From an uncultured Collinsella sp. (GTDB lineage Bacteria; Actinomycetota; Coriobacteriia; Coriobacteriales; Coriobacteriaceae), in the NCBI GenBank assembly GCA_958445065.1, contig CAUCQW010000021.1, positions 1-38,192 of the forward strand: a stretch of DNA of 38,192 nt, written 5' to 3'. How positions within the stretch are numbered: the first letter of the stretch is position 1; each line of letters begins with the position of its first letter. Of the stretch, positions 3,309 to 14,196 are shown piece after piece. The notes beneath the pieces are model-generated. The model ran no database searches. It had not been told where the DNA came from and worked only from the letters and a program-made list of their open reading frames with translations. The translations under genes were made by a program, and so were the position numbers.

Positions 3309-3878
3309 ATGGAGAGGAAAATCACGAATATCGATGAGTTCCAAATGGACGAAAACGAGACCCCGATACTCCCAACGGGACTGAGGGAGGAAGAAAACCT
3401 TTACGTCCTCCCCGACGGGCGTTACCTCCCCTGCGCACTCGAAACGCTGAAAAGGACGCGGGCCTCGGTTCTTAACCAGGGTGCGCGTCCTTTACCAGCA
3501 TATTATCTCATCAGAGAGCAACGGCGTCGCGGAACCGATGAAACAAACGAGACGGTTCCAACCCCAGAGCGAGCCCAGGGCGGAACCGCCCAAGCAGCTA
3601 CATTCCATCAGTCCTACGGGATGGATTTGATGCTGACAGGAAGCGACCAGGAGGCAACCGATATCCGGCACGGGGCAATCATGCGTAGGCCTCCGCGGGA
3701 AGGCTACCGTCAATGGCAGCGTGGGGCTGGCCGTCGAGGTCTTCCCAGCTCGCGCAGATGTAGTCGTATTTTTCGAGCTCTACATTGTCGTTTTCAATCC
3801 ATGCAGGCTCGAGCTCATGCACAAGCTCATTCGGGACTGCCCAGCCGAACATATCCCAACAGTGCTTCCCATCGATAA
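3309..3878 (+). CDS. Small unknown gene with a genuine-looking start and a doubtful 3' part
   Basis: The reading frame starts with ATG behind a near-perfect AGGAGG (3299-3304), 32 bases after the DraG-like gene, so translation initiation here is credible. The first 60 or so residues (MERKITNIDEF, ENLYVLPDGRYLPCALETLK) look like normal protein. From about residue 70 the composition changes to Arg/Gln/Thr-rich sequence, and the last 65 residues lie opposite the well-supported minus-strand gene at 3679-4032. I infer that the original gene was truncated or frameshifted near 3500-3680, and that the remainder of the frame is fortuitous. Two small inverted repeats, GGAACCG/CGGTTCC (3531-3558) and GGGCG/CGCCC (near 3580), lie in the changed part. 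No family recognised. Confidence 0.4.
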   Translation: MERKITNIDEFQMDENETPILPTGLREEENLYVLPDGRYLPCALETLKRTRASVLNQGARPLPAYYLIREQRRRGTDETNETVPTPERAQGGTAQAATFHQSYGMDLMLTGSDQEATDIRHGAIMRRPPREGYRQWQRGAGRRGLPSSRRCSRIFRALHCRFQSMQARAHAQAHSGLPSRTYPNSASHR

Positions 3879-4032
3879 TCTGCTGACGAAAATCACAGCT
3901 ATCGAAGAAGAAACTCATTTCATGGGACGCAAGTTGCGAATTGAGAAGGTCAACGGAGTCGACGATGCAGTCGCTGTAGTCACCAGGCAGGTCTTGCATG
4001 CACCTTATTCCAAAGTGCGGTGTAATAGCCAC
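3679..4032 (-). CDS. Unknown 117-residue protein, last gene downstream of the CRISPR array
   Basis: GTG start at 4032 with a strong GAGGAGG about nine bases upstream; 117 residues; acidic, with many aromatic residues (EMSFFFDSCDF, HCWDMFGWAVPNELVHELEPAW, YDYICASWEDLDG). It has no signal peptide or membrane segment and I do not recognise the family. Such compact acidic proteins resemble immunity proteins, but this is only an impression. It lies 27 bases downstream of a solitary degenerate CRISPR repeat (4060-4095) and is the last in a row of minus-strand small genes beyond the array trailer. The plus-strand frame that ends at 3878 overlaps its 3' part and is probably not coding there. Confidence 0.65.
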   Translation of the reverse strand: MAITPHFGIRCMQDLPGDYSDCIVDSVDLLNSQLASHEMSFFFDSCDFRQQIIDGKHCWDMFGWAVPNELVHELEPAWIENDNVELEKYDYICASWEDLDGQPHAAIDGSLPAEAYA

Positions 4033-4059
4033 TGCAGCCCTCCTCGTATCTGAACAGAG

Positions 4060-4095
4060 GCTTGATTACCAGTTAGATCGACACTGTTTAAAATC
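4060..4095 (-). repeat. Solitary degenerate CRISPR repeat 1 (31/36 match)
   Basis: Read on the plus strand it differs from the array repeat at positions 2, 28, 30, 31 and 35 only. A run of 25 bases, from TTGATTACC to GACACTG, is identical to the array repeat. This run covers the part that would pair with the tracrRNA anti-repeat. It lies about 1.29 kb beyond the array trailer. It supplies the last codons (QCRSNW) and the stop of the gene upstream of it on the minus strand. Confidence 0.9.
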
Positions 4096-4682
4096 TAAAT
4101 GTCTCAGTGCGTAGTCCACGAACTCGGGCTCAAGCTCTAGGTCGTACTTCTCAACGTGATAGGCATCGCGATCGCTCCACTGCCAGTCACCGTGCCTATA
4201 CCAACCCCATGCGCGATCGCACACCGTCTTGCCCGTAGTCGCGTCTTCGAATCGTCCAGCAGTCGCACAGAACGGCGCTGGCCCGCGCATGAACGCAAGC
4301 ACCTTGTCCTTCTCCGCTAGTACCTTGATCGGGAAGTCCGCGTTCCGCGTGTAGTCTGTCGTCGCTATGCTTCTCATTTTTGCCTTCCTCGGCTGGAACG
4401 TTATGAACTCGCCCGTGTTATCCCCCACGTTTCCCCAGCCCCAAGCCCGCCGTCACCGCAAACCCGCAGCCTGTCGTCGGGTGCGACGACGAGTGCGCCC
4501 CTCTCGTAGTCATCGCGTTCCCCGACCACGTCCGTCAGCACCTTGTGGTCGGAGCGGTTGCCCATAAGGTCGACGAACAACGGGGCGCCGTGGCACATGA
4601 CAACGGCTTGGTTGCCCGCCAGAGCGGTACCGCTCCAAAAAATGGTGTCGAGTGCTTTGTTCGTTCTATTGATGCGGGACAC
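4066..4682 (-). pseudogene. Unknown gene split by a one-base frameshift in a C5/G5 homopolymer
   Basis: Two overlapping minus-strand frames (4682-4401 and 4428-4066) join smoothly if one G is added to the five-G run (plus-strand C5 at 4422-4426). The joint then reads GAGETWGDNTGEFITFQP and the product would be about 205 residues. Neither half has its own convincing ribosome site, although GTG at 4428 could serve as a separate start. The protein has no recognised family; the second half is Trp/Asp-rich (RAWGWYRHGDWQWSDRDAYH). Its C-terminus (DFKQCRSNW) comes from the degenerate CRISPR repeat at 4060-4095, so the native end was probably replaced. Near its N-terminus, FWSGTALAGNQ coincides with another degenerate repeat (4606-4641). 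GTG at 4682 directly follows the stop of the broken membrane peptide upstream. Sequencing error, true mutation or programmed shift cannot be told apart here. Confidence 0.5.
4606..4641 (-). repeat. Solitary, strongly degenerate CRISPR repeat 2 (25/36 match)
   Basis: Alignment with the array repeat gives 25 identities in 36 without gaps; eight of the eleven differences are transitions. The CGCTCCAAAA end is well kept. It lies inside a minus-strand reading frame, where it encodes FWSGTALAGNQ, compared with FWSSVDLTGNQ for the array repeat in the same frame. Less certain than the other two copies. Confidence 0.5.
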
Positions 4683-4822
4683 CTAGCCGCCCAGCAGGAT
4701 ATTAAGGATTGCGATAATAATTGCTATCGCAGCGATAATCAGAAATAGCGTAAAGGGGAAAATTACCGCTCGAGCAACAGTCTGATGAGCGCGTCGATAA
4801 ACTCGGCGTTTGCATCGGACAT
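4683..4822 (-). pseudogene. Broken small membrane-peptide gene (probable frameshift)
   Basis: ATG at 4822, with GGAG about ten bases upstream, opens a 19-codon frame (MSDANAEFIDALIRLLLER, stop 4763-4765). The next frame, which has no start codon of its own, continues across the stop into a strongly hydrophobic segment: AVIFPFTLFLIIAAIAIII then AILNILLGG, stop at 4683-4685. Joined by a shift near 4765, the two halves would form a peptide of about 46 residues with an amphipathic N-terminus and one membrane helix. Small membrane peptides of this form are common in toxin or immunity roles, but there is no direct evidence for that here. The stop directly abuts the GTG of the next frame. It sits between two degenerate CRISPR repeats. 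Confidence 0.3.
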
Positions 4823-4897
4823 GGTGACATCAACTCCAGACGAATGCGACCGCTCGTGGCGGCCGCCAGCTAGCAGTAATAAACAGAGTATATTGTC

Positions 4898-4933
4898 GTC
4901 TGCCTACCAGTCAGATCGACACTGCTCCAAAAC
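4898..4933 (-). repeat. Solitary degenerate CRISPR repeat 3 (32/36 match)
   Basis: It differs from the array repeat only at positions 3, 6, 7 and 15 (plus-strand reading). The half ending GATCGACACTGCTCCAAAAC is identical. It lies 450 bases beyond the last repeat of the array, and that gap is filled by two small genes instead of a spacer. Confidence 0.92.
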
Positions 4934-4952
4934 TATGCGGCTGTGTGCTTGG

Positions 4953-5189
4953 CTAGTACCAGAAAACGGCGCCGCCATCCCGTACGCTACCATCGCGCAG
5001 CATGCGGCGAGCCTCTGCGAACATGTGCTCCACATAGCGCTCATGCCTATCGTTCGGCGATACGGACAGAACGGAAACGATACCGACGCTGCGGTCGAGG
5101 ACCACGGTACCCGGGTCTCCCTTGCCCTCGGGATAGTATTCGAACATCGCGACATTACCGTCGTCTTCGACCTTCTTAAACTCGAGCAT
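4953..5189 (-). CDS. Unknown small protein (78 residues) with an FEYYPEGKG motif
   Basis: I place the start at ATG 5189 (MLEFKKVEDDG); an upstream in-frame ATG at 5210 is possible. The protein reads as a compact alpha/beta domain: MLEFKKVEDDGNVAMFEYYP, then a turn EGKGDPGTVVLD, a second hairpin, and NDRHERYVEHMFAEARRML as a helix, ending in GGAVFWY. From memory it resembles a family of roughly 80-residue proteins in Firmicutes and Actinobacteria with the F.YYPEG pattern, for which I know no function. It overlaps the gene before it by 14 bases, so the two are probably translationally coupled. It ends 20 bases before degenerate repeat 3. Confidence 0.6.
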   Translation of the reverse strand: MLEFKKVEDDGNVAMFEYYPEGKGDPGTVVLDRSVGIVSVLSVSPNDRHERYVEHMFAEARRMLRDGSVRDGGAVFWY

Positions 5190-5376
5190 CTTCTGGCCAC
5201 GCCACCTCATCCAACCATGCGCCCAATGTGTCCTGGTAACTGTACCGCAGGTTCGCAGCGTCGTAGGCTGCAGGCTGACCCTTTCCCTGAGTCATGTAAT
5301 GCGATTCCAGCAGCTCGCGCTTGAACATCATCACGCAGCGCGCATGCAGTTCCTCGCCATCGAAAAGCCTGCACAT
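5176..5376 (-). CDS. Unknown 66-residue protein starting right after the array trailer
   Basis: ATG at 5376 gives MCRLFDGEELHARCVMMFKR, then ELLESHYM, LRYSYQDTLGAWLDEVAWPEDARV. The frame stays open into the last CRISPR repeat (FWSSVDLTGNQT) up to a TTG, but that part is repeat-derived and not a believable start. ATG 5376 is only seven bases from the end of the last repeat, and only a weak GGGA can act as ribosome site, so the native upstream region seems to have been replaced by the array. It is mostly helical and has no known domain. It shares a 14-base overlap with the following gene. Confidence 0.5.
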   Translation of the reverse strand: MCRLFDGEELHARCVMMFKRELLESHYMTQGKGQPAAYDAANLRYSYQDTLGAWLDEVAWPEDARV

Positions 5377-5383
5377 TGTCCCA

Positions 5384-6339
5384 GTTTGATTACCAGTTAG
5401 ATCGACACTGCTCCAAAACAAGAAACAAGTTCATAGGCCGCTCCAATCGGTTTGATTACCAGTTAGATCGACACTGCTCCAAAACGGAGACTACCAGCGT
5501 CCCGGCTCCAACATGTTTGATTACCAGTTAGATCGACACTGCTCCAAAACGTTCTCCTAGCCTTGACCGTGCGAGCGACCGTTTGATTACCAGTTAGATC
5601 GACACTGCTCCAAAACCCGAACAAATCATTGCCGTGCATTGTCCTGTTTGATTACCAGTTAGATCGACACTGCTCCAAAACTATTTCATCACGAACGTTG
5701 AGTACCTTTCCGTTTGATTACCAGTTAGATCGACACTGCTCCAAAACGACGTCTATGTGCATGTACTCCATTTCTTAGTTTGATTACCAGTTAGATCGAC
5801 ACTGCTCCAAAACAACTTTCCTCTGTTGCCAAAAAAATATCGTGTTTGATTACCAGTTAGATCGACACTGCTCCAAAACGCATCGGGGAGCCTCCACTCC
5901 TCCGCTGTGTTTGATTACCAGTTAGATCGACACTGCTCCAAAACCGAGGCCGTTTCTAGTTCCCTGCCGCTCGAGTTTGATTACCAGTTAGATCGACACT
6001 GCTCCAAAACCTCCGACACCCAGCAGCGGTCGATGATGACGTTTGATTACCAGTTAGATCGACACTGCTCCAAAACGTTCGCTTGTTGAGAATGGCTTTA
6101 ATTTGGTTTGATTACCAGTTAGATCGACACTGCTCCAAAACTTAATCATGTTAGGAATCCGCGGGTCATTGGTTTGATTACCAGTTAGATCGACACTGCT
6201 CCAAAACGATAGGTATATAAACGTGAGGAAGTCTGAGGTTTGATTACCAGTTAGATCGACACTGCTCCAAAACGAGACAGACGGCTCGTTTGACCCGAAC
6301 AACGTTTGATTACCAGTTAGATCGACACTGCTCCAAAAC
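5384..6339 (-). CRISPR. Type II-A CRISPR array, 15 identical repeats and 14 spacers
   Basis: The 36-base repeats start at 5384, 5450, 5515, 5581, 5646, 5712, 5778, 5844, 5909, 5975, 6041, 6106, 6172, 6238 and 6304. All are identical by eye. Spacers are 29 or 30 bases. In the expected transcribed (minus) orientation the repeat begins GTTTTGGAGCAGTG and ends GGTAATCAAAC, the same pattern as other type II-A repeats. The leader is therefore at 6340-6394, next to csn2, and the oldest end is at 5384. Orientation is supported by the tracrRNA, whose anti-repeat is complementary to the minus-strand transcript. Even the trailer-end repeat is intact, in contrast to the three solitary degenerate copies further down. 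Confidence 0.98.
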
Positions 6340-6394
6340 CATTGGAGCAAATTCCCTACTGCGACGGGACGTTCAATCTAACCGGTCTGTTCTT
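6340..6394 (-). promoter_or_regulatory. CRISPR leader (55 bp) between csn2 and the first repeat
   Basis: The csn2 stop codon is at 6395-6397, leaving only 55 bases before the first repeat. Two parts resemble the repeat in inverted orientation: TTGGAGCA (6342-6349), which pairs with TGCTCCAA (6329-6336) of the first repeat across a five-base loop, and CAATCTAACCGGT (6374-6386), which is 11/13 like the repeat core CGATCTAACTGGT read on the opposite strand. I see no clear promoter in it, so the array may be transcribed by readthrough from the cas operon. Confidence 0.75.
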
Positions 6395-7075
6395 TCAATG
6401 CTCTAAAAACTGCAGGTCAACCGTTAGTTTATGTTCATGTCTGTAAGCCATGGTATCTTTTTTATTCTCCAGGAGCAACAGGCTCAACTTAAGGAAAAAC
6501 ACGTGGTCATAGAGCGTTTGCAGCTCATTTTCCGTCAAAAAAGTTTTGAGATTTACAAATACGATTGTCTTCCTGCAGCCAGCGTCAAGAGCAAATGAAA
6601 GGAAATTCAGCAGATTATCAAGGAACGATTTATCTTCTTGAGGCGCTGCACCAAATCCTAAAAACTTGAGGTAGCGCTTCAAATCCCATTCTAACCCAAA
6701 CCCCAAATCGGCATTAAAGCCAAGGTTCAATCCGCCTAAACGTAGCTTTATTGCACGTTCAGCCTCTTCCACCTGCATACGCAGATCTTCGTCTTCTAGA
6801 AACTCGCGCTCAACCTTCTTGGTGATTGCGGTCATAAACGCACGGTCATCCCATGGAAGGTTCAAAGCATCAGGCACTACCATCAGGGCGCTGCCGGGCT
6901 TAATCTCCTCATCGTCTTTCCAAAGGGAATAAGGCTCCATCGCCTGGCGCCCCAATCCGTTTTGCAAGGAAGCTACAATCCGCGCGAACAGGGCCGAGTT
7001 CTCGACTTGCAAAACCGATGTCTCCCCTGCCGTTAGCTCCAACGAGTTCTCAAGTCCCGAAAACACGAGCCTCAT
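6395..7075 (-). CDS. csn2: Csn2, type II-A spacer-acquisition protein
   Basis: The protein of 226 residues has the length and layout of the canonical short Csn2 family. The N-terminal strand-rich part reads MRLVFSGLENSLELTAGETS. A long helical arm follows (KKVEREFLEDEDLRMQVEEA), then a C-terminal half with FLGFGAAPQEDKSFLDNLLN and KTIVFVNLKTFLTENELQTL. Csn2 forms a tetrameric ring that binds free DNA ends and works with Cas1, Cas2 and Cas9 during spacer acquisition; it defines subtype II-A. The ATG overlaps the end of cas2 by four bases, so translation is coupled. The gene is AT-richer than the flanking chromosome. Its last codons (FLEH, stop) lie in sequence resembling the repeat end (TTTTTAGAGCATTG). 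Confidence 0.93.
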   Translation of the reverse strand: MRLVFSGLENSLELTAGETSVLQVENSALFARIVASLQNGLGRQAMEPYSLWKDDEEIKPGSALMVVPDALNLPWDDRAFMTAITKKVEREFLEDEDLRMQVEEAERAIKLRLGGLNLGFNADLGFGLEWDLKRYLKFLGFGAAPQEDKSFLDNLLNFLSFALDAGCRKTIVFVNLKTFLTENELQTLYDHVFFLKLSLLLLENKKDTMAYRHEHKLTVDLQFLEH

Positions 7076-7407
7076 AAAACCAGGAGCTCCTCCATTGTGT
7101 CTATCTCCTCATGAGCCTCGCGGTTGCCCGTAATGTACTCCATGGTCGAAAACTGAGACTCAGTCACGCGAAGGACTTGCACGAGGCCGGACGGCGGACG
7201 ATGCTTCCTGAGCCTTTGTACTGCACTTCCTGCCGCCCCATCATTAACAACAAGCTTTGCATACACGGACTCCTGGAGCATAAGATAGCCATCTTTAAGA
7301 AGAAACTTGCGAAACACGCGGTAGTCTTTTCTCTGCGCAGGAGTATCGACGGGCAAATCAAAGAAAACGACAAGCCTCATATATCTGATCCTTTCCCCGA
7401 CACTCAT
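7072..7407 (-). CDS. cas2: Cas2, spacer integration subunit
   Basis: The protein of 111 residues has the ferredoxin-like Cas2 core: RYMRLVVFFDLPVDTPAQRK, then YRVFRKFLLKDGYLMLQESV and a final strand (VQVLRVTESQF). Cas2 dimerises and holds two Cas1 dimers in the integration complex. The start is debatable. ATG at 7407 overlaps the cas1 stop (ATGA) and gives MSVGERIRYMRL, which matches the short RYMR lead of streptococcal Cas2. ATG at 7380 (MRLVVFF) has a better ribosome site (GGAAAGGA). I keep the longer form because of the RYMR resemblance. The 3' end overlaps csn2 by four bases. Confidence 0.93.
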   Translation of the reverse strand: MSVGERIRYMRLVVFFDLPVDTPAQRKDYRVFRKFLLKDGYLMLQESVYAKLVVNDGAAGSAVQRLRKHRPPSGLVQVLRVTESQFSTMEYITGNREAHEEIDTMEELLVL

Positions 7408-8285
7408 ACGACCTCAAACGACTCGATTTCGTCCACCGACAACTTCCGGTCAAGAGCCTTGAAACAGTCAGCAACATACAGAGAGATTACGGAGCCCACG
7501 CGATACGTGCCGCCTCGATACGCGATTCCCTGATTGAGCATGTCAACCAAAAGCAGCTTTGTCTCCTTAGAGAACTCGCCGTCAAAGTTATCGAATACAA
7601 TGCGGTCGACAAGAGGCCTAAACGGCTCCATAAAATCGCAGCTCAGGTTGAACTGGTTAAACTCATTTCTGTGACAAATCCCCGCCTGCGTAAGGTATCC
7701 GCGCGCCGCGATCTCACGATTGACACTCGATAGCAGAATCGCATACCCGTAATTGAGAGCAGCATTAAGAGGCGTATCGTCATCCCTCGAGAAGGACGGA
7801 CCAAACAGAGAGCTGAAATACAGCCGAGCGGCATGACCCTCGCGATTTGTTGTATCTCCAGAGCGTACCTCGGCAACAATGCTCCTGAGCGTCTCACCCT
7901 GCTCCTCACGTGCACGGGCGTGAAGCACGTCAGATTGATGCTTAATCTTGTCGCGCACGATTCGCTGCCATACGCGCTTTTTGATCGGCTCGCCCCACTC
8001 AAGCTGTTCTGCAATACGCTTACTGGTGTTATGAGCCCCATATAGCGGCAAATACTGCCCAATGGGGTCGCGCTTCTCGTCAGAAACGACAAACGCGACC
8101 TTTGCCTTGGCAAGCTCCGAGAGCAGATAAGCGCTTATGAACACCTGGTTGGTCTGGAGGACGACCGACGAAATCTCCGAAAGGTGGACCTTCGCCGTGT
8201 CGTCCTCGCGGCGGACAACCATGTAGCCGCCCTTGTACTGCAATTTGCAGGGGCTAGAAATGACAATGTTCCTAAAGCCCGACAC
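7404..8285 (-). CDS. cas1: Cas1 integrase, type II
   Basis: The protein of 293 residues is a typical type II Cas1. The small N-terminal beta domain begins MSGFRNIVISSPCKLQYKGG. The catalytic helical domain carries the conserved metal ligands: Glu149 in NREGHAARLYF, His205 in GICHRNEFNQFNLSCDF, and Glu220 in FMEPFRPLVD. The enzyme catalyses the two strand transfers that insert a new spacer at the leader end of the array. ATG at 8285 overlaps the end of cas9 by 14 bases, and the stop overlaps the cas2 start. All active-site residues are present, so acquisition should be possible. Confidence 0.96.
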   Translation of the reverse strand: MSGFRNIVISSPCKLQYKGGYMVVRREDDTAKVHLSEISSVVLQTNQVFISAYLLSELAKAKVAFVVSDEKRDPIGQYLPLYGAHNTSKRIAEQLEWGEPIKKRVWQRIVRDKIKHQSDVLHARAREEQGETLRSIVAEVRSGDTTNREGHAARLYFSSLFGPSFSRDDDTPLNAALNYGYAILLSSVNREIAARGYLTQAGICHRNEFNQFNLSCDFMEPFRPLVDRIVFDNFDGEFSKETKLLLVDMLNQGIAYRGGTYRVGSVISLYVADCFKALDRKLSVDEIESFEVV

Positions 8286-11200
8286 GGGTCCTTCTCTCGA
8301 ACATACCCGTTACGGACTGATCAATAAGGAAAACCGTCACATTTGAATCGCTCAGCAACTTTGAATAATTAGGCTGTATACAACCCGAAAACTTTGAGCC
8401 GCCCGCGGGTGACAAATCAACCATATTCATTGTTCCATTCACCAAGGCAAGCAGGCGCTTGACTACTGCAACAACATCTTCCGCATCCATAGTTGCGCAC
8501 TTTTCTATGATCGCCTCAATTTTGAGTTGACGCAGCAGCCTGCCAGAGACGGAAGAAGCCGCAGGATTAAACATATCCAAAAGCTTGATAGCATCTTCGC
8601 TACACGTATCTCCTGCGAGCAGTTTCATTTGCTCATTTGAAAAAGCCAGTTGCGTAGCATTCCTCATCTCCTTTTTCCCCGTAATAAAGAATCTCTCGCC
8701 GTCCACCTCAATCAGCTGTTTCTTGTAGATCTTCGGCCTCGTGATACCGACGTATTCCAAACCTTCCTTCTCCGCAAGTCCCCTTGCATATTCGCCGAGT
8801 ACCGCCGAGTCGCCCTCGATGCGCGCCGCAAGCCACACGGGAACCTGAGAGAACCGGAACACCGGCTTCCCCTTCTTTTTGGCCTTATAGATAAAGAAAT
8901 ACGCAAACTGCTGGCTCGAAAAACCACCGTACCGCTTAGCATCAAGCCCCTGCTTGGTCGACAACTCAAGCTTTGCACCCATCTTGGGATCACGCGGCGA
9001 GTAAATCGTTGCCTTCCAGAACGCTCCCGTATCCTCCTGCGGCATCCTCGAGATGTAACACTGGCGATAGTTGAACGCACGGCGAATGCCCTCGACCTCC
9101 GCAGCAGCATTCCAGCCGTCCGGAAGATACTTGCCCCTATAGCGCTTGACCTCATCGTCCTCGGACCAAGCATCGTCAAAGACCTCGCCCGTCTCGGGGT
9201 CAAATCCCGCAGTCATAAAGCTATTGACGACAAAACCGGCAGATCCGGGCATGCGATGGGTTTTCTTAAACAGCTCGGACTGCTCGCGCACGTACTTCTT
9301 AATCACATGCGAGTAGCCAATGGGGTTCTCGTACATACCCGGATGGCGCATCTGGATAAACAGACCCAAGCGACATGCCAGATACGCATCATGTGCATGG
9401 TGAAAATCATTTGCCTCACGGCATTTGACCAAACCGGCAGCTTCACGAAGGTTGTGCGACATGCTTGCTTTAACAGGAACGATCTTAGTTCCCTCGCCGG
9501 CATAACGCGCCTCCAGCAACGCTTGAGCCATCTTGACCATCTGGCTCGTTTCTACAAGTTGGCGAGCCACAAAGCCCTTCATCGCATTATCGTTAATGGA
9601 AGAACGCAGCAAGTTGCGATACTTTTTATCGCCAATGAGCTTCGCCTGGTGCAGTTGCTTCCATGTTTCGCCCATCTTCCAGCGAATGCTCTTATCAATC
9701 AAAAGCTGGTCGGTCTTGTGCTGATTCTCCTCGCGGTATACCAGCGCCTTGTTCTCAAGGCTGTCATCCTTAATGTATGCACGCGGGATGATATGGTCGA
9801 CCTCGTACTCACCCGAGCCCGCCATAAGCTTATTAAGGTCGATAGCGCGACCAGAATACAAGCACTTTCCGTTCTGCATCAAATAGAGGGTCAAGCGCTC
9901 GTCAAGGTTAACGTTTGCCGCCTTGAGTTCCTTGAAATCGCCCATAACAGCCAAGTCGCCGCCCTCGGCCTTAAACGCCTTGAGAGCGTCCTCGATGGCG
10001 TCCCAGCGCTTCGCGGTCCGCTTGCCCTTCTTCTTTTCGTCCTCGTCGCGAGTCACCTCAACAAATACGTTAGCCGGCGCGTATCCCGCAATCTTAGCGA
10101 TTTCGTCAACGATGCGAATCGCTTGATTCAGGCTGCGGCGAATCGCAGGAGATCCAGGGAGCTCATTTACGCCGAGAGACTTCTCGTTTTCGGCATAGTA
10201 TTTGCGATTATACTCATCCACTTTTTCCTGGAAGCCCAACGTATTGTCGTGGAGAATCTCCATCATCACCATAGTCTCGCCCAAGCGGCGCTCTGAGCTG
10301 GGATTTCCTTCTCGCAGCACGTCCATGATGCTCATAGATCGACCGGCTTGTGTATCAATCCTGATACCCGTCAGGAACTTCTCCGACAGACGTCCCCAAC
10401 CGGTCAGGCGCTTTTTGCAAATCTTCTTAATCTGTTCGGCGTCGAGCATTCCATTGCCACTTGGACCAAACTCATCCTGTAGTTTTTCCTTAAGGATTGA
10501 GCGGTCCTCAAACAACGTGTTCCAAAGAATGATTTTCTCGATAACCGGATATTCGGCACGGCTCAACTCGTCAACACCAAAGATGTCCTTGGCAAAAAAG
10601 ATATACGAGCCCATCTTCGATTCAAGACCGCTCTCGCCCTGGCCACCTCGGACAACCGGATTTGTTGCGTCACCCTCTTTTACAAGCCAGTCGGCAATCA
10701 TCTTGTAAGTAACGCGGCGCTTTTTATGGAAAAGTTCATGGACAATGCCTTCACGCTGCGCGGCATCCAAGCGCCGCCAATCGTCACCATCCTCAGACCA
10801 GCGAACGCCATTGAGCTCATTCAGGACGCAAAACTCCTCATAGAGCAGAGACTGCTTGGGAAGCACCTTCTCGTCTGCGAGATAAGTGCAGTCACCCGTC
10901 ATGCGCAGGATAAAGTTCTCTGCACTCTTGTTCTTATCGATTACGGTATCCCAGTTCCAAGGCGTGATTGCTGCATCTTCCATGCCGGGCTTGCGCTCGG
11001 ACCATTGAAATCGAGGCTTGCCGTGTTTGTCCTGGGCAGCGTTTTTAGACGTCAGCGGCCCCACATAGTACGGAATACGGAACGTGACCAGACTCTCGAT
11101 TTTTGCAGCCTCATCCTTAAGGAACGGATAAAAGCGCCCCTGGTTTTTAAGAATAGCCTGAAGTTCCTCAAGATGCAGCTGGTAGTAGATGGCGCCGTTA

Positions 11201-12495
11201 TCGCTCGTCTTCAGGCGACGCAAAAAGCGCTGTTTGTCGAATGCGTCCATCATGGCGATATAGCGCTCATCCGTCTCCGCGCCCGTTCCCGCAAAGAGCT
11301 TCTTTACCGATTTGGCAAAGTCATCGTAGGAGAGCTTATGCAGATCGTAGGCAGTGTAGCCCTGGGCCTTCGAGACATCATAGTCGCGCGAAGGATCGTC
11401 TGCATTCGCATCATGGTATGTTGACCCGCGGAAAAACGCATCATACGACCCGGGCGCATAGCCGCCAAACGTATCAGCGTCATCTTTCGGGGCACCATGG
11501 ACCAAATATTTGAGTGTTTCGAGGTCGTGATCGTATTGCTTGTACTTTTCAATCATGTTATGAGAAATCGTCTGACCCTCGGCGTACGAAAGAAGACCTT
11601 GGAGAACATAGGCGGAATAAACACCGCAGATCGCCTCGAGAAACTCGGCGCAGTCATCGGGACATGCGGCCTGCAGCGCCTCTAGCTTCTCGTCATCGGA
11701 AAGCGCGATCTTGGTTGCCTCGCACTCAAACTCGCCAAACACGTCTTTGAACTCGCACTGAAGGCCAACGACAGCGTTCGACAAACCCTTCGCCAGCTTT
11801 TTATTCGCAGTCGCGTCTCCTGTGTCAACCACTACAAGGGCCTGAATGTCTTTTGCCTTTTGCGAACGAGAAGACCTCTCATCAACGAGGATCTTTGCGA
11901 CGGCGCTTTTATTGATTTTTGCAACATCATATTCCCTCGACTCGCACCAAGCCTGCAGGGAGTCGCTAAGACGCTCGAGGGCATCCGACGTTTTCGCCGT
12001 CTTTGCCGTCAGCTTCTCTCCCTGGCGCAAGAAGTTGCCACGATGCTTAACGATGTTATGGATTGCAAGATACACCAGGCGCAGGTCGGCCTGCTCATCG
12101 GTATCCATAAGATAGGCGCGCAGATGGTAGATGGTCGGGAAACGATCGTAGTAATCGGCTTTCGTGAAGTCCTTGGTAAAGATCGGGTCGCCTTCGATGG
12201 TTCGTGACTGATTGAGTCGCATGAAAAAGCCCGGATCGACTTCGCTCATCGCGGGTTCGAACAGCTTTTGCAGCAAGTCGAGACGCCAGCGACGACGCAC
12301 GTAACGACGACGCTGGCCACGATGAACGCGCGCCTCGGATGCCGGCTGCGCACTATCGAACAAGCGGCTACCCCACGTCGGCTGCTTCTTAAAATGCAGA
12401 AGCTTGCCCTGGGCATCAGTCACCGCCCAACCAACGGAGCCGGTTCCCATGTCGAGGCCGATATTGTAGTCGCCAGAGTAGTTTCTTAAATTCAT
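8272..12495 (-). CDS. cas9: Cas9 endonuclease (subtype II-A), 1407 residues
   Basis: All nuclease motifs are intact. RuvC-I has Asp15 in YNIGLDMGTGSVGWAVTD. The Arg-rich bridge helix is at about 54-75 (RVHRGQRRRYVRRRWRLDLL). RuvC-II has Glu813 in VFVEVTRDEDEKKK. HNH has Asp900, His901 and Asn924 (YEVDHIIPRAYIKDDSLENK), with His-Asn spacing equal to that in SpCas9. RuvC-III has His1033 and Asp1036 in FHHAHDAYLACRLGLF. Residues from about 80 to 760 form the recognition lobe, and the region beyond about 1130 should contain the PAM-interacting domain; the PAM cannot be read from sequence. The length fits the long II-A type. Start ATG 12495 is preceded by GGAAGGG. A putative promoter lies inside the tracrRNA anti-repeat on the other strand. 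The protein should form a dual-RNA-guided DNA nuclease with the tracrRNA just upstream. Confidence 0.98.
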   Translation of the reverse strand: MNLRNYSGDYNIGLDMGTGSVGWAVTDAQGKLLHFKKQPTWGSRLFDSAQPASEARVHRGQRRRYVRRRWRLDLLQKLFEPAMSEVDPGFFMRLNQSRTIEGDPIFTKDFTKADYYDRFPTIYHLRAYLMDTDEQADLRLVYLAIHNIVKHRGNFLRQGEKLTAKTAKTSDALERLSDSLQAWCESREYDVAKINKSAVAKILVDERSSRSQKAKDIQALVVVDTGDATANKKLAKGLSNAVVGLQCEFKDVFGEFECEATKIALSDDEKLEALQAACPDDCAEFLEAICGVYSAYVLQGLLSYAEGQTISHNMIEKYKQYDHDLETLKYLVHGAPKDDADTFGGYAPGSYDAFFRGSTYHDANADDPSRDYDVSKAQGYTAYDLHKLSYDDFAKSVKKLFAGTGAETDERYIAMMDAFDKQRFLRRLKTSDNGAIYYQLHLEELQAILKNQGRFYPFLKDEAAKIESLVTFRIPYYVGPLTSKNAAQDKHGKPRFQWSERKPGMEDAAITPWNWDTVIDKNKSAENFILRMTGDCTYLADEKVLPKQSLLYEEFCVLNELNGVRWSEDGDDWRRLDAAQREGIVHELFHKKRRVTYKMIADWLVKEGDATNPVVRGGQGESGLESKMGSYIFFAKDIFGVDELSRAEYPVIEKIILWNTLFEDRSILKEKLQDEFGPSGNGMLDAEQIKKICKKRLTGWGRLSEKFLTGIRIDTQAGRSMSIMDVLREGNPSSERRLGETMVMMEILHDNTLGFQEKVDEYNRKYYAENEKSLGVNELPGSPAIRRSLNQAIRIVDEIAKIAGYAPANVFVEVTRDEDEKKKGKRTAKRWDAIEDALKAFKAEGGDLAVMGDFKELKAANVNLDERLTLYLMQNGKCLYSGRAIDLNKLMAGSGEYEVDHIIPRAYIKDDSLENKALVYREENQHKTDQLLIDKSIRWKMGETWKQLHQAKLIGDKKYRNLLRSSINDNAMKGFVARQLVETSQMVKMAQALLEARYAGEGTKIVPVKASMSHNLREAAGLVKCREANDFHHAHDAYLACRLGLFIQMRHPGMYENPIGYSHVIKKYVREQSELFKKTHRMPGSAGFVVNSFMTAGFDPETGEVFDDAWSEDDEVKRYRGKYLPDGWNAAAEVEGIRRAFNYRQCYISRMPQEDTGAFWKATIYSPRDPKMGAKLELSTKQGLDAKRYGGFSSQQFAYFFIYKAKKKGKPVFRFSQVPVWLAARIEGDSAVLGEYARGLAEKEGLEYVGITRPKIYKKQLIEVDGERFFITGKKEMRNATQLAFSNEQMKLLAGDTCSEDAIKLLDMFNPAASSVSGRLLRQLKIEAIIEKCATMDAEDVVAVVKRLLALVNGTMNMVDLSPAGGSKFSGCIQPNYSKLLSDSNVTVFLIDQSVTGMFERRTRVGL

Positions 12496-12526: not shown

Positions 12527-12536
12527 TGCCTTGTCG

Positions 12537-12566
12537 ATTACCAGTTACATCGACACTGCGAGTCAA
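12537..12566 (-). promoter_or_regulatory. cas9: Putative cas9 promoter embedded in the tracrRNA anti-repeat
   Basis: On the minus strand TTGACT (12566-12561) and GGTAAT (12542-12537) are separated by 18 bases. They would start a transcript near 12530, giving a 5' leader of about 35 bases with GGAAGGG before the cas9 ATG. The whole element lies inside the anti-repeat and the bulge region of tracrRNA. Box matches are 5/6 and 4/6, so this is a prediction. Confidence 0.45.
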
Positions 12567-12630
12567 AATACGGCTTTGCCAAAAATGCCTTCCTCGGAAG
12601 GCGTCCCGTAGGGGACAAATTGACTTGCCA

Positions 12631-12661
12631 GAGGGGTTCCATTTGGAGCCCCTCTTTTTTT
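12631..12661 (+). terminator. Terminator of tracrRNA
   Basis: GAGGGGTTCC (12631-12640) pairs with GGAGCCCCTC (12645-12654), including one G-U pair, across an ATTT loop. Seven T residues follow. Confidence 0.95.
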
Positions 12662-12858: not shown

Positions 12859-14196
12859 CTACTTACCAAAAATCGCAGCGAGCAATCCCTTGCGTTTGGG
12901 CTTCTCCTCCCGGCAGGAACCCTCGGCCGCCGCTGCCACTTGACGCGGCTGCTCGCCGCCTCCACGGCGCACGATCTGGTATAGGAAGGGCGATTTAACG
13001 TATTTGACCTCGATGGGCGTGGCGTGCACGGTGCTTTCGCTCGACAGTATCACTTTGGGATTGAGCGGTGCCACCACATGCGTCTCGCGCTTGTCGCTGA
13101 ACACTACCGCGGCCGCGCGACCTGTCTGGCCGTTCACGGCGATGCGCACTTGCTCGCCGTCGCGGCTATCCGACGCCGGGCGATCGACAAAGTAGACCGG
13201 TACCATCACCAGGCCGTCCTTATGCTTGCGGGCCTTACGCGCCCAGGTGCGGATGCTCTTTTTATTGAGCCCCAGCACCGCCTCGGCATCGTTGCCGGCA
13301 ACGTCGAGCGCCAGCTTATCAATGACCACCTGGTCCTTGGTAGACGCATCGACGGAGACAACGCGGAAGTCGCCCTCCTGCATGGCAGGATCGAACGGCC
13401 CCACCTTGCCAAAGTCCCACGGCTCCAAAATGCCCATAAGGCGAACGTCCAGGTAGTTTGCCCGCGGATACGCCCAGTCGAGCACCTCGTAGTACACCAA
13501 GGTCTCCTTGCTCAGCCCCTTGCCCGGGAAGGACGCCATCATGCGCAAATCCGCCAGCGCCATGGGGAAATAGAAGAGCATCATGTCATTTTGAATCGCG
13601 TCTTCCACGTCGTGCCCGGCAAAGGCGTCGGGGTACTGGCGCACCAGCTGCAGTGCATTGGCACGCGCCTGCTGCGGAGTGATCTCGCAGGGAATGCCCT
13701 GCTCGGGTACATACTCCGCACCAACGCCCATGGTCAGGCGTTTGCTAAAAGTACCGGGCTTGAGCAGGTCGGCAACGCCGATCTTATTGCCGCAGGACGG
13801 GCATTCAAACACGCGCTGGGTCGATGACCCCTCAAAGGACGCACCGCAGAAGGGGCAGGGAATGCTCACATGCGTAGCTTCTTGGAACTCCTGCGCCGTG
13901 CCGCGGTCCTCCCACAGCAGATGCTCCAGAACCGACTGATTGCGCCAGTGCGCATTGAAGAAATACCAGTCCGGGTCTACCGGGCGCTCGAGCTGCGACA
14001 CATGGGTGAGCTTAAGTAGCCCATCCACCACCGTCAACGGCGTATGACGAATGCCCAGGGCACTCTTGGGCTCCCCCACATCGGCCTGCCACGGAACGAC
14101 CGTACCGCAATAGGCGCACTCAAAGCTGCGTTTAGCCTGGTGCGAGTACATAGGGCCGCCGCAGTTTTGGCATTTAATGGCAAACATCTCGTCCAT
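12859..14196 (-). CDS. Double zinc-ribbon protein of unknown function
   Basis: The protein of 445 residues has two CxxC-CxxC zinc ribbons: Cys9/12/27/30 (CQNCGGPMYSHQ..FECAYC) and Cys114/117/132/135 (CPFCGASFEG..FECPSC). The long C-terminal part is predicted soluble, with WAYPRANYLDVRLMGIL, VIDKLALDVAGNDAEAVLGL and MVPVYFVDRP. The last 30 residues are basic (KPKRKGLLAAIFGK) and might interact with membrane or nucleic acid. Zinc ribbons followed by a large domain are known from membrane-associated and DNA-associated proteins, but I cannot assign a family. Start ATG 14196 has a strong AAGGAGGAC upstream. It stands alone on the minus strand, with its own terminator, and is divergent from the cation efflux gene. 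An imperfect operator-like palindrome, CGACAT-N5-ATGTCG, lies at 14226-14242 just upstream of its start. Confidence 0.75.
   Translation of the reverse strand: MDEMFAIKCQNCGGPMYSHQAKRSFECAYCGTVVPWQADVGEPKSALGIRHTPLTVVDGLLKLTHVSQLERPVDPDWYFFNAHWRNQSVLEHLLWEDRGTAQEFQEATHVSIPCPFCGASFEGSSTQRVFECPSCGNKIGVADLLKPGTFSKRLTMGVGAEYVPEQGIPCEITPQQARANALQLVRQYPDAFAGHDVEDAIQNDMMLFYFPMALADLRMMASFPGKGLSKETLVYYEVLDWAYPRANYLDVRLMGILEPWDFGKVGPFDPAMQEGDFRVVSVDASTKDQVVIDKLALDVAGNDAEAVLGLNKKSIRTWARKARKHKDGLVMVPVYFVDRPASDSRDGEQVRIAVNGQTGRAAAVVFSDKRETHVVAPLNPKVILSSESTVHATPIEVKYVKSPFLYQIVRRGGGEQPRQVAAAAEGSCREEKPKRKGLLAAIFGK

Follow-up and report, generated by a model that had tools for sequence, protein, structure and literature searches.

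The stretch of DNA analysed here (38,192 nucleotides from an uncultured Collinsella sp., contig CAUCQW010000021.1, hereafter the window) carries a CRISPR-Cas locus of type II-A, in which cas9, cas1, cas2 and csn2 lie together with a tracrRNA bearing an antirepeat. The array sits beyond csn2, is read on the minus strand and consists of 36-base repeats (starts 5384 to 6304) separated by 14 spacers that are all of normal length (29-30 nt). The locus comprises:

8272..12495, minus strand: Cas9, 1407 amino acids (PADLOC Cas9, E 5.5e-265)
7404..8285, minus strand: Cas1 of type II (PADLOC Cas1_II, E 8e-108)
7072..7407, minus strand: Cas2 (PADLOC Cas2_II, E 5e-40)
6395..7075, minus strand: Csn2, marker of subtype II-A (PADLOC Csn2, E 5e-98; Pfam PF09711, E 1e-16)
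12532..12567, plus strand: antirepeat of the tracrRNA, 26/36 against the repeat (followed by a hairpin and by a T run starting near 12655)
5384..6339, minus strand: CRISPR array of 15 identical repeats and 14 spacers
5420..5449, minus strand: oldest ordinary spacer

The tracrRNA is read on the plus strand and had no match in Rfam, and the spacer array had no match at E 1 in phage records. The oldest ordinary spacer resembles the start of a 30-amino-acid ORF (34 nt, 88%) that is found in some relatives at the same chromosomal site. A CreTA-like control of this ORF was considered but seems doubtful, as no spacer of the other arrays searched matches it (155 spacers in all).

Short uniform spacers are confined to 5384-6339. 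Between 4060 and 5383 they give way to three gene-sized intervals bordered by degenerate repeats:

4934..5383, minus strand: interval 1, 450 nt, with frames g5176 (5176-5379) and g4953 (4953-5210)
4898..4933, minus strand: solitary repeat, 32/36
4642..4897, minus strand: interval 2, 256 nt
4606..4641, minus strand: solitary repeat, 25/36
4096..4605, minus strand: interval 3, 510 nt, holding g4066 (start near 4377), whose frame enters the next repeat
4060..4095, minus strand: last tail repeat, 31/36, which gives g4066 its stop codon
3679..4032, minus strand: gene g3679, just outside the last repeat

The three repeat copies and the gaps between them had been claimed in a preliminary description of this DNA, and repeat scoring recovered each with the same position, spacing and score, on the strand of the array. 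Even the 25/36 copy stands out, since 100 mononucleotide shuffles of 3601-5383 gave a top score of 22/36 and the rest of the 38 kb holds nothing above 21/36 except the tracrRNA antirepeat. The preliminary description had further stated that the gaps are filled with small minus-strand frames; this holds for the intervals of 450 and 510 nt, while that of 256 nt is without a supported gene. The tail genes, like the repeats, run in array orientation.

The genes of the tail had no Pfam match above the cut-offs and no PHROGs match below E 0.1. Seventeen relatives of g4953 were found (P0006-P0022), and a distant one lies in a prophage region of genome G023, flanked by a minor-capsid/Ntox50 gene and a scaffold gene. 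The predicted model of the g4953 family reached a pLDDT of 92; a fold search with it gave nothing below E 0.5, and the weak matches included a papain-like toxin/immunity pair. For g4066, whose family model was poor (pLDDT 65), the relatives are P0001-P0005. In the window and in P0001, which is 99% identical, the frame continues into the repeat and takes its stop codon from it, while the other four (P0002-P0005) terminate in ...YALxH or ...YALRY. A truncated relative of g3679 occurs in G013, just outside the last repeat of that genome, and the ORF of a 506-nt interval in G017 matches g3679 weakly (31%, E 0.001).

Family-wide searches revealed 29 repeat-to-repeat intervals of at least 100 nt in 10 genomes, the window included (a count that excludes the listed entry G013_7895_8157, an ordinary array), with lengths reaching 2.2 kb and a gene content that varies from genome to genome. 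At least one long interval is present in 8 of the 9 arrays or repeat series with a readable trailer side, G025 being the one without. Where cas genes are present, namely in the window, G021, G057 and G063, long intervals are found at the trailer end only (in G063 the cas genes are on another contig and the leader side lies outside the view). The two interleaved cases, G013 and G017, are both without a cas1 hit, and so are G015, G019, G024, G027 and G031, which nevertheless carry, as these two do, solitary or interrupted repeats. The clearest arrangement is that of G017, whose 15 identical repeats enclose 14 alternating units, 8 long ones (178-547 nt) and 6 spacers of the ordinary kind. All eight long intervals are bounded by complete repeats, as expected of target duplication, and none breaks a repeat, an outcome with a probability of 0.0018 under random insertion into 66-nt units; one source region is present in both orientations. 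Since its repeats are identical and long intervals alternate with ordinary spacers, repeat decay is ruled out as the cause, in agreement with the earlier argument that normal trailer decay does not suffice. The cas genes of G017 seem to have been lost through recombination between antirepeat and repeat.

Several of the recognisable contents of these intervals are phage genes, including toxin tails with a small gene behind them. The 339-nt interval of G058 combines a toxin tail with a relative of the gene that directly follows a papain-fold toxin in a viral contig (L097), and the 516- and 431-nt intervals of G017 likewise hold toxin tails and the next ORF. A 297-nt interval of G017 resembles an Ntox50 tail by eye, for which BLAST gave no support. 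Other contents are less clearly phage: G031 has a HicB-like antitoxin, and G057 gave a weak helicase-like match. None of the carried genes matched an immunity family in Pfam. Overall, 7 of the 29 intervals match the fetched phage loci and 22 match none of them, versus 2 of 116 control segments with a match (p = 0.0002); without the four intervals that had served as queries, the comparison is 3/25 versus 2/116 (p = 0.04). Assigned genes follow the direction of the array in 11 of 15 intervals, which is not significant (p = 0.12; 1 mixed and 13 unassigned intervals omitted).

In five of the intervals with phage relatives, homology extends to the repeat or nearly so. It comes within 1 nt of the repeat for a terminase small subunit in G013 (E 3e-34), within 4 and 1 nt for the 516- and 431-nt intervals of G017 (E 8e-22 and 7e-21) and within 2 nt in G021 (E 4e-31), and in the 339-nt interval of G058 it covers almost the whole length, leaving 1 nt at one border and 11 nt at the other (E 2e-28); in two further intervals it begins 18 and 22 nt from the border. 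In the five intervals of the border test, foreign sequence thus reaches the repeat, a result that concerns the homology and not the adjoining sequence of the parent, since all queries but that of G013 were cut at the border. At the G013 junction, terminase relatives in other genomes run through without a repeat. The Pfam scores of this terminase fragment and of a DUF2513 gene lie under the Pfam cut-offs, and the terminase reading is based on PHROG 83 and on the longer relatives. One search of viral contigs gave relatives at 33-53% amino-acid identity, but phage records, viral contigs and family genomes yielded no parental phage close enough for a PAM to be read, so that the Cas1-Cas2 step is a putative one.

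Based on these sequence comparisons, we propose, with a probability of roughly 0.55, that the tail represents the old part of a type II-A array, farthest from the leader, and that it holds gene-length pieces of foreign and at least partly phage DNA, which would have entered by Cas1-Cas2 integration. The chemistry would be the normal one, in which Cas1-Cas2 joins a prespacer to the repeat and the repeat is duplicated, with prespacers that entered without being trimmed to length. In type II-A systems studied in vitro, trimming is done by Cas9, and Cas1-Cas2 by itself also integrates substrates that were left untrimmed (PMC8034620). Long units might be tolerated because a type II guide needs only the ~20 nt adjoining the downstream repeat (PMC8034620), the carried genes may be read from the array transcript, and later decay of the oldest repeats would yield the 25-32/36 copies of the window. 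Against this proposal stand the normal length of every spacer in the window array, the restriction of long intervals to the trailer end in cas-bearing genomes, the lack of a cas1 hit in both interleaved cases, the array of G025, the majority of intervals without a phage match, the contents that are not clearly phage and lengths of up to 2.2 kb, which far exceed those given in the accessible text on in vitro integration. A more far-reaching version, which we regard as speculative and rather unlikely, is that the array of Coriobacteriaceae is a dual store: Cas1-Cas2 would take up gene-length phage fragments including whole immunity-type genes, which would be transcribed from the CRISPR leader, cut apart at the repeats by tracrRNA and RNase III, and give protection from toxins carried by phages; the last 20 nt of every unit would continue to act as a Cas9 guide.

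Intervals whose borders coincide with repeats might also have spread as cassettes by homologous recombination, with crossovers in the 36-nt repeats releasing repeat-flanked units as loops or swapping them among arrays, in an integron-like manner that does not need Cas1-Cas2 each time. The recurrence of related genes across genera (intervals of G060 and G063 share 46 nt at 78%, and G060 has a distant g4953 relative and a counterpart of the g4066 C-terminus) and the apparent loss of cas genes in G017 fit such exchange, to which we assign a minor share of the probability. It does not account for the first appearance of repeats on both sides of a phage segment that ends within a gene, and the longest DNA match seen between intervals of different genomes is 57 nt. 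It appears quite unlikely that the tail is simply a relic, with no particular mechanism behind it beyond unrelated insertions and deletions in an array that was ageing or already dead. Repeats do persist in genomes without a cas1 hit, those of the window tail are degenerate, and one solitary repeat lies at the same chromosomal site in L022, L023 and L024 (from G031, G024 and G019); yet G017, with its identical repeats, interleaved long intervals and respected borders, disfavours it, and so does phage homology that in the testable cases extends to the border, leaving little room, if any, for the remains of an earlier spacer. We reject an insertion into a spacer already in place on the same grounds: ~15 nt of it would be left per side on average, but at the four ends open to the test homology starts 1-4 nt from the repeat. 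The preliminary description's own alternative, an array broken up by insertion, comes close to the outcome of the family comparison. The conserved stretch beside the solitary repeat of L022-L024 was rejected as CRISPR-linked: the link is positional only, since the element or a diverged copy of it occurs in L058-L061 and L072 without a repeat-like site of at least 21/36 (~3 kb each).

The preliminary description had favoured a regulatory role, in which the small genes would be controlled through the cutting or binding of a common transcript by tracrRNA, RNase III or Cas9, the solitary repeats being retained for this purpose. The common orientation of genes and repeats and the presence of an antirepeat are in line with this, as are terminator-like sites that are not above chance in 3400-6500 (2 against an expectation of 2.6; the one at 5098-5083 is on the array strand). 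Yet repeats are also found where a cas1 search gave no hit, the genes between them vary from one genome to the next, and the solitary copies are changed in both halves (10 copies together have 21 changes in positions 1-18 and 32 in positions 19-36); we regard such control as a very improbable reason for keeping the repeats. Finding the same small genes and repeats with no CRISPR locus nearby had been named as speaking against it; this is partly seen in G060, where a 90.8 kb contig with no cas hit carries 7 solitary repeats and, among them, a distant g4953 relative and a gene that aligns with g4066 over the last 27 residues of the latter only. Repeats borne by phages themselves, that is, solitary repeat units (SRUs, RNA anti-CRISPRs) brought in with prophage pieces, are scarcely credible as the source. 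Phage genes do adjoin the solitary repeats, and SRUs have been suggested to take part in viral integration (PMC10651486). But two exact repeat patterns matched 0 viral contigs (with limited variation allowed and the G017 repeat not covered), no copy above 22/36 occurs in the 29 prophage and viral loci compared, relatives of the G013 junction are uninterrupted, and the repeats come in series.

The length of a spacer is taken to be set by the uptake machinery. Gene-length foreign DNA alternating with 30-nt spacers between identical repeats would show that natural systems can lose or evade this length control, as predicted by the in vitro behaviour of Cas1-Cas2 lacking Cas9. Such arrays would fit the view of Cas1-Cas2 as a transposase relative and raise the possibility that a CRISPR array carries and expresses genes, and may be a means of storing, perhaps even using, whole phage genes. 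The carried sets of phage toxin tails and the genes behind them allow a direct functional test. Software that searches for arrays on the premise of uniform spacers would presumably miss these loci or break them up.

When compared to a regular type II-A array, the loci described here are alike in cas gene set, repeats, ordinary spacers and tracrRNA antirepeat, but 8 of the 14 units of G017 and the last three of the window measure 178-547 nt instead of ~30. Integron gene-cassette arrays likewise consist of short genes separated by a common repeat, but the repeat here is that of a CRISPR and the segments are often cut inside genes. The integrase studied in vitro without Cas9 trimming likewise accepts untrimmed prespacers, and spacers of 30-45 bp still conferred immunity (PMC8034620); its lengths are tens of bp, versus hundreds and up to 2.2 kb here, and natural arrays of the present kind are absent from the accessible account. 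We found no earlier report of gene-sized spacers in the literature, as judged from titles and the openings of abstracts, with subscription papers mostly out of reach. With SRUs, as described in the accessible text of PMC10651486, these loci share lone repeat copies near phage genes; the copies here, however, lie on the host chromosome as series that follow the array orientation and either adjoin an array or take its place, with three copies beyond the 15 repeats of the window, and the viral encoding expected of SRUs was not seen in the viral contigs. An SRU should have no other full or partial repeat beside it; the published filter checks this within 100 bp, so that the window copies would each pass it singly. 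CreTA (PMC9458426, as far as available) also has degenerate ectopic repeats near a CRISPR locus, but there one or two repeats make a short guide for Cascade that matches a toxin promoter, whereas here the intervals are 256-510 nt long and the effector is Cas9. Finally, the orphan immunity-gene arrays of polymorphic toxins, in the available descriptions (PMC5361080, PMC12247911), resemble the present loci in toxin tails followed by a small gene, several per array, and differ from them in that CRISPR repeats stand between the units here and that the contents are related to phage minor-capsid toxin loci.

On the minus strand of the window lies a type II-A locus, in the order cas9, cas1, cas2, csn2 and then the array, and beyond the leader-distal array end sit three extra repeat copies, with 450, 256 and 510 nt in the successive gaps. 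Identity to the 36-nt repeat is given as n/36.

5384-6339, minus strand: CRISPR array, 15 identical 36-nt repeats
4898, array orientation: repeat copy, 32/36
4606, array orientation: repeat copy, 25/36
4060, array orientation: repeat copy, 31/36

Shuffled versions of the tail region reached a best score of 22/36, and the tracrRNA antirepeat at 12532 is the sole further site in the window scoring above 21. The preliminary description of degenerate same-strand repeat copies past the array, separated by gene-length gaps, is confirmed. Database relatives were found for both g4953 and g4066, the small minus-strand genes of the 450- and 510-nt intervals. The g4066 frame enters the repeat in the window and in the relative P0001, its stop codon being repeat-derived, whereas four other g4066 relatives terminate at ...YALxH or ...YALRY. 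Elsewhere in the window (15615-38037) lie several very long minus-strand frames of 1029-1267 aa.

The first DNA query found matches in 10 of 43 Collinsella genomes, the match in G040 lying outside the repeat, and a cas1 search in 8 of the 43, with no cas1 match in G013, G015, G017, G019, G024, G027 and G031, all of which have repeat copies; a repeat pattern search matched 10 of 65 genomes of the family Coriobacteriaceae. Counting as an interval any repeat-to-repeat stretch of at least 100 nt, we found 29 (117 to 2235 nt) across 10 genomes, after removal of one listed entry that was ordinary array: window 3, G013 4, G017 8, G021 1, G027 1, G031 1, G057 1, G058 3, G060 6 and G063 1. At least one occurs in 8 of the 9 arrays or repeat series with a readable trailer side (window, G013, G017, G021, G057, G058, G060, G063), the ninth, G025, having none; this count leaves out G023 and G043 (contig edges), the relics of G027 and G031, with two copies each, and G015, G019 and G024, with one copy each. 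The series of G058 and G060 may themselves be relics, since they lack ordinary spacers and consist of repeats scoring 24-32/36. The series in G013, read away from a csn2 remnant, begins with a repeat, 1143 nt and a second repeat, then one spacer and a third repeat; 423 nt lead to a block of five repeats and their four spacers, followed by 472 nt, a repeat, 652 nt and a last repeat. Two of its long intervals (L021, 6735-7386 and 8193-8615) have a stretch of about 300 nt in common, 86% identical, whose opposite strand holds a small hydrophobic ORF, MDVTETIALLALIIAAIELGYRIGKDIGRRKK, for which Pfam returned no family. The interval anatomy is recurrent at the family level and is not simple decay. 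To this extent the earlier interpretation stands; its proposal that tracrRNA, RNase III and Cas9 act on one transcript of array and small genes was neither supported nor contradicted.

The decisive case is the array of G017, in which 15 identical repeats bound eight long intervals (273, 178, 506, 338, 547, 297, 516 and 431 nt) interleaved with six ordinary spacers of 29-30 nt. None of the eight disrupts a repeat, an outcome with a chance of 0.0018 under random insertion (36 of every 66 nt being repeat). One further spacer lies between the first repeat of this array and an element resembling an antirepeat/repeat hybrid (L081/L082, 635953), adjoined by a tracrRNA-like stretch with a terminator, and the window Cas proteins have zero matches in the 40 kb of G017 examined. 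Taken together, these features fit an apparent loss of the cas operon via antirepeat-repeat recombination.

Several intervals resemble phage DNA almost up to their borders. Homology to a terminase small subunit comes to 1 nt from the repeat in G013, phage homology to 4 nt in one G017 interval, to 1 nt in another and to 2 nt in G021, and in the 339-nt interval of G058 it begins 1 nt inside one border and ends 11 nt before the other; in a window interval and one G060 interval it stops 22 and 18 nt short, respectively. For the remaining 22 of the 29, no phage relative was found for border comparison. Placement of the segments inside older spacers is ruled out in the testable cases by this homology reaching the repeat. 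Phages that carried the repeat are likewise ruled out as a source in these cases, since none of the 29 prophage and viral loci compared has a repeat-like site above 22/36, and in other genomes the terminase gene (PHROG 83) passes the point of the G013 repeat junction with an uninterrupted frame and no repeat there.

Of the 29 intervals, 7 matched the retrieved phage loci, versus 2 of 116 control segments, which came from nine retrieved chromosomal stretches (p = 0.0002). Four of these seven had themselves been queries in the search for the loci, and their removal leaves 3 of 25 versus 2 of 116 (p = 0.04). The 516- and 431-nt intervals of G017 each consist of a papain-fold toxin tail plus the next ORF (Pfam PF15644, E 2e-7, for the 516-nt copy, to which the other is 69% identical), and a G058 interval combines a tail of this kind with a complete relative of the gene that immediately follows the toxin in the viral contig L097. 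The G021 interval holds an HK97 gp10-like gene together with a gene from a PHROG without known function, the G013 intervals a terminase fragment and a DUF2513-like gene, and the G031 interval a HicB-like antitoxin. A distant relative of g4953 (32%) lies in a prophage region of G023, in the order minor capsid protein with C-terminal Ntox50, 64-aa ORF, g4953 relative, 121-aa ORF, scaffold protein. The capsid gene there (L044, 21-1271) encodes a phage minor capsid protein 2 with the Ntox50 toxin domain at its C-terminus, and phage capsid proteins with polymorphic toxin domains may be common in Coriobacteriaceae. Genes in the intervals were array-sense in 11 cases and antisense in 4, which is not significant, in a hand-compiled list that has some weak assignments and excludes one mixed interval and 13 without an assignment. 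A small ORF family (..EAQ(K/R)RA.AKY.. ending ..RLIR.DM.R) occurs within or next to stretches bounded by repeats in three genera (the G017 trailer, the last G060 interval and the G063 interval), with 46 nt at 78% common to the G060 and G063 stretches.

From these sequences we infer that long segments were taken up by Cas1-Cas2: foreign DNA, cut anywhere, would have been integrated with duplication of the repeat. This would be the simplest process, since the segments are cut anywhere, bounded by whole repeats and interspersed, in either orientation, among ordinary spacers. In type II-A systems, according to the excerpted text of PMC8034620, Cas9 complexed with the integrase trims prespacers to 30 bp, Cas1-Cas2 alone integrates unprocessed substrates, and protection is equal for spacers of 30-45 bp. 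On this basis we propose that untrimmed phage fragments were taken up, perhaps while Cas9 was absent or limiting. A point against this is that genomes retaining cas genes have their long intervals at the old array end. Repeat-repeat recombination may also have spread or rearranged units. Extending the preliminary idea, captured genes could possibly be expressed from an array transcript cut at the repeats; such expression is not needed to account for the anatomy.

The oldest ordinary spacer of the window (5420-5449) has a 34-nt, 88% match to the start region of a 30-aa ORF, MNLFLEILRLSMYVTGIARNLYSIWREYKQ, present at an identity of at least 96% in 5 of 43 Collinsella genomes (located at L023 3455-3674, L022 7797-8016 and L024 8645-8865). 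Four of the five carriers have it less than 1 kb from a relative of a CRISPR-flanking gene (window 12859-14196); in the fifth, G031, it shares a contig with an ADP-ribosylglycohydrolase, the gene flanking the other side of the CRISPR locus. Downstream of a solitary repeat in L022, L023 and L024, the element with this ORF comprises 152 nt without a difference among the three genomes, and the surrounding 650-673 nt differ by 6-10%; diverged copies occur in other family genomes (L058-L061, L072). The element resembles a type I toxin-antitoxin unit and may be one.

Judged by titles and abstract starts, the open-access literature yielded no report of gene-sized spacers. Repeats, antirepeat and cas genes make the window structure part of a type II-A array, but the tail departs from the uniform spacers of such arrays. 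As far as the excerpted descriptions go, the window copies differ from solitary repeat units (PMC10651486) in standing in series beside an array, in host DNA, and the tail differs from CreTA (PMC9458426) in effector and spacing.
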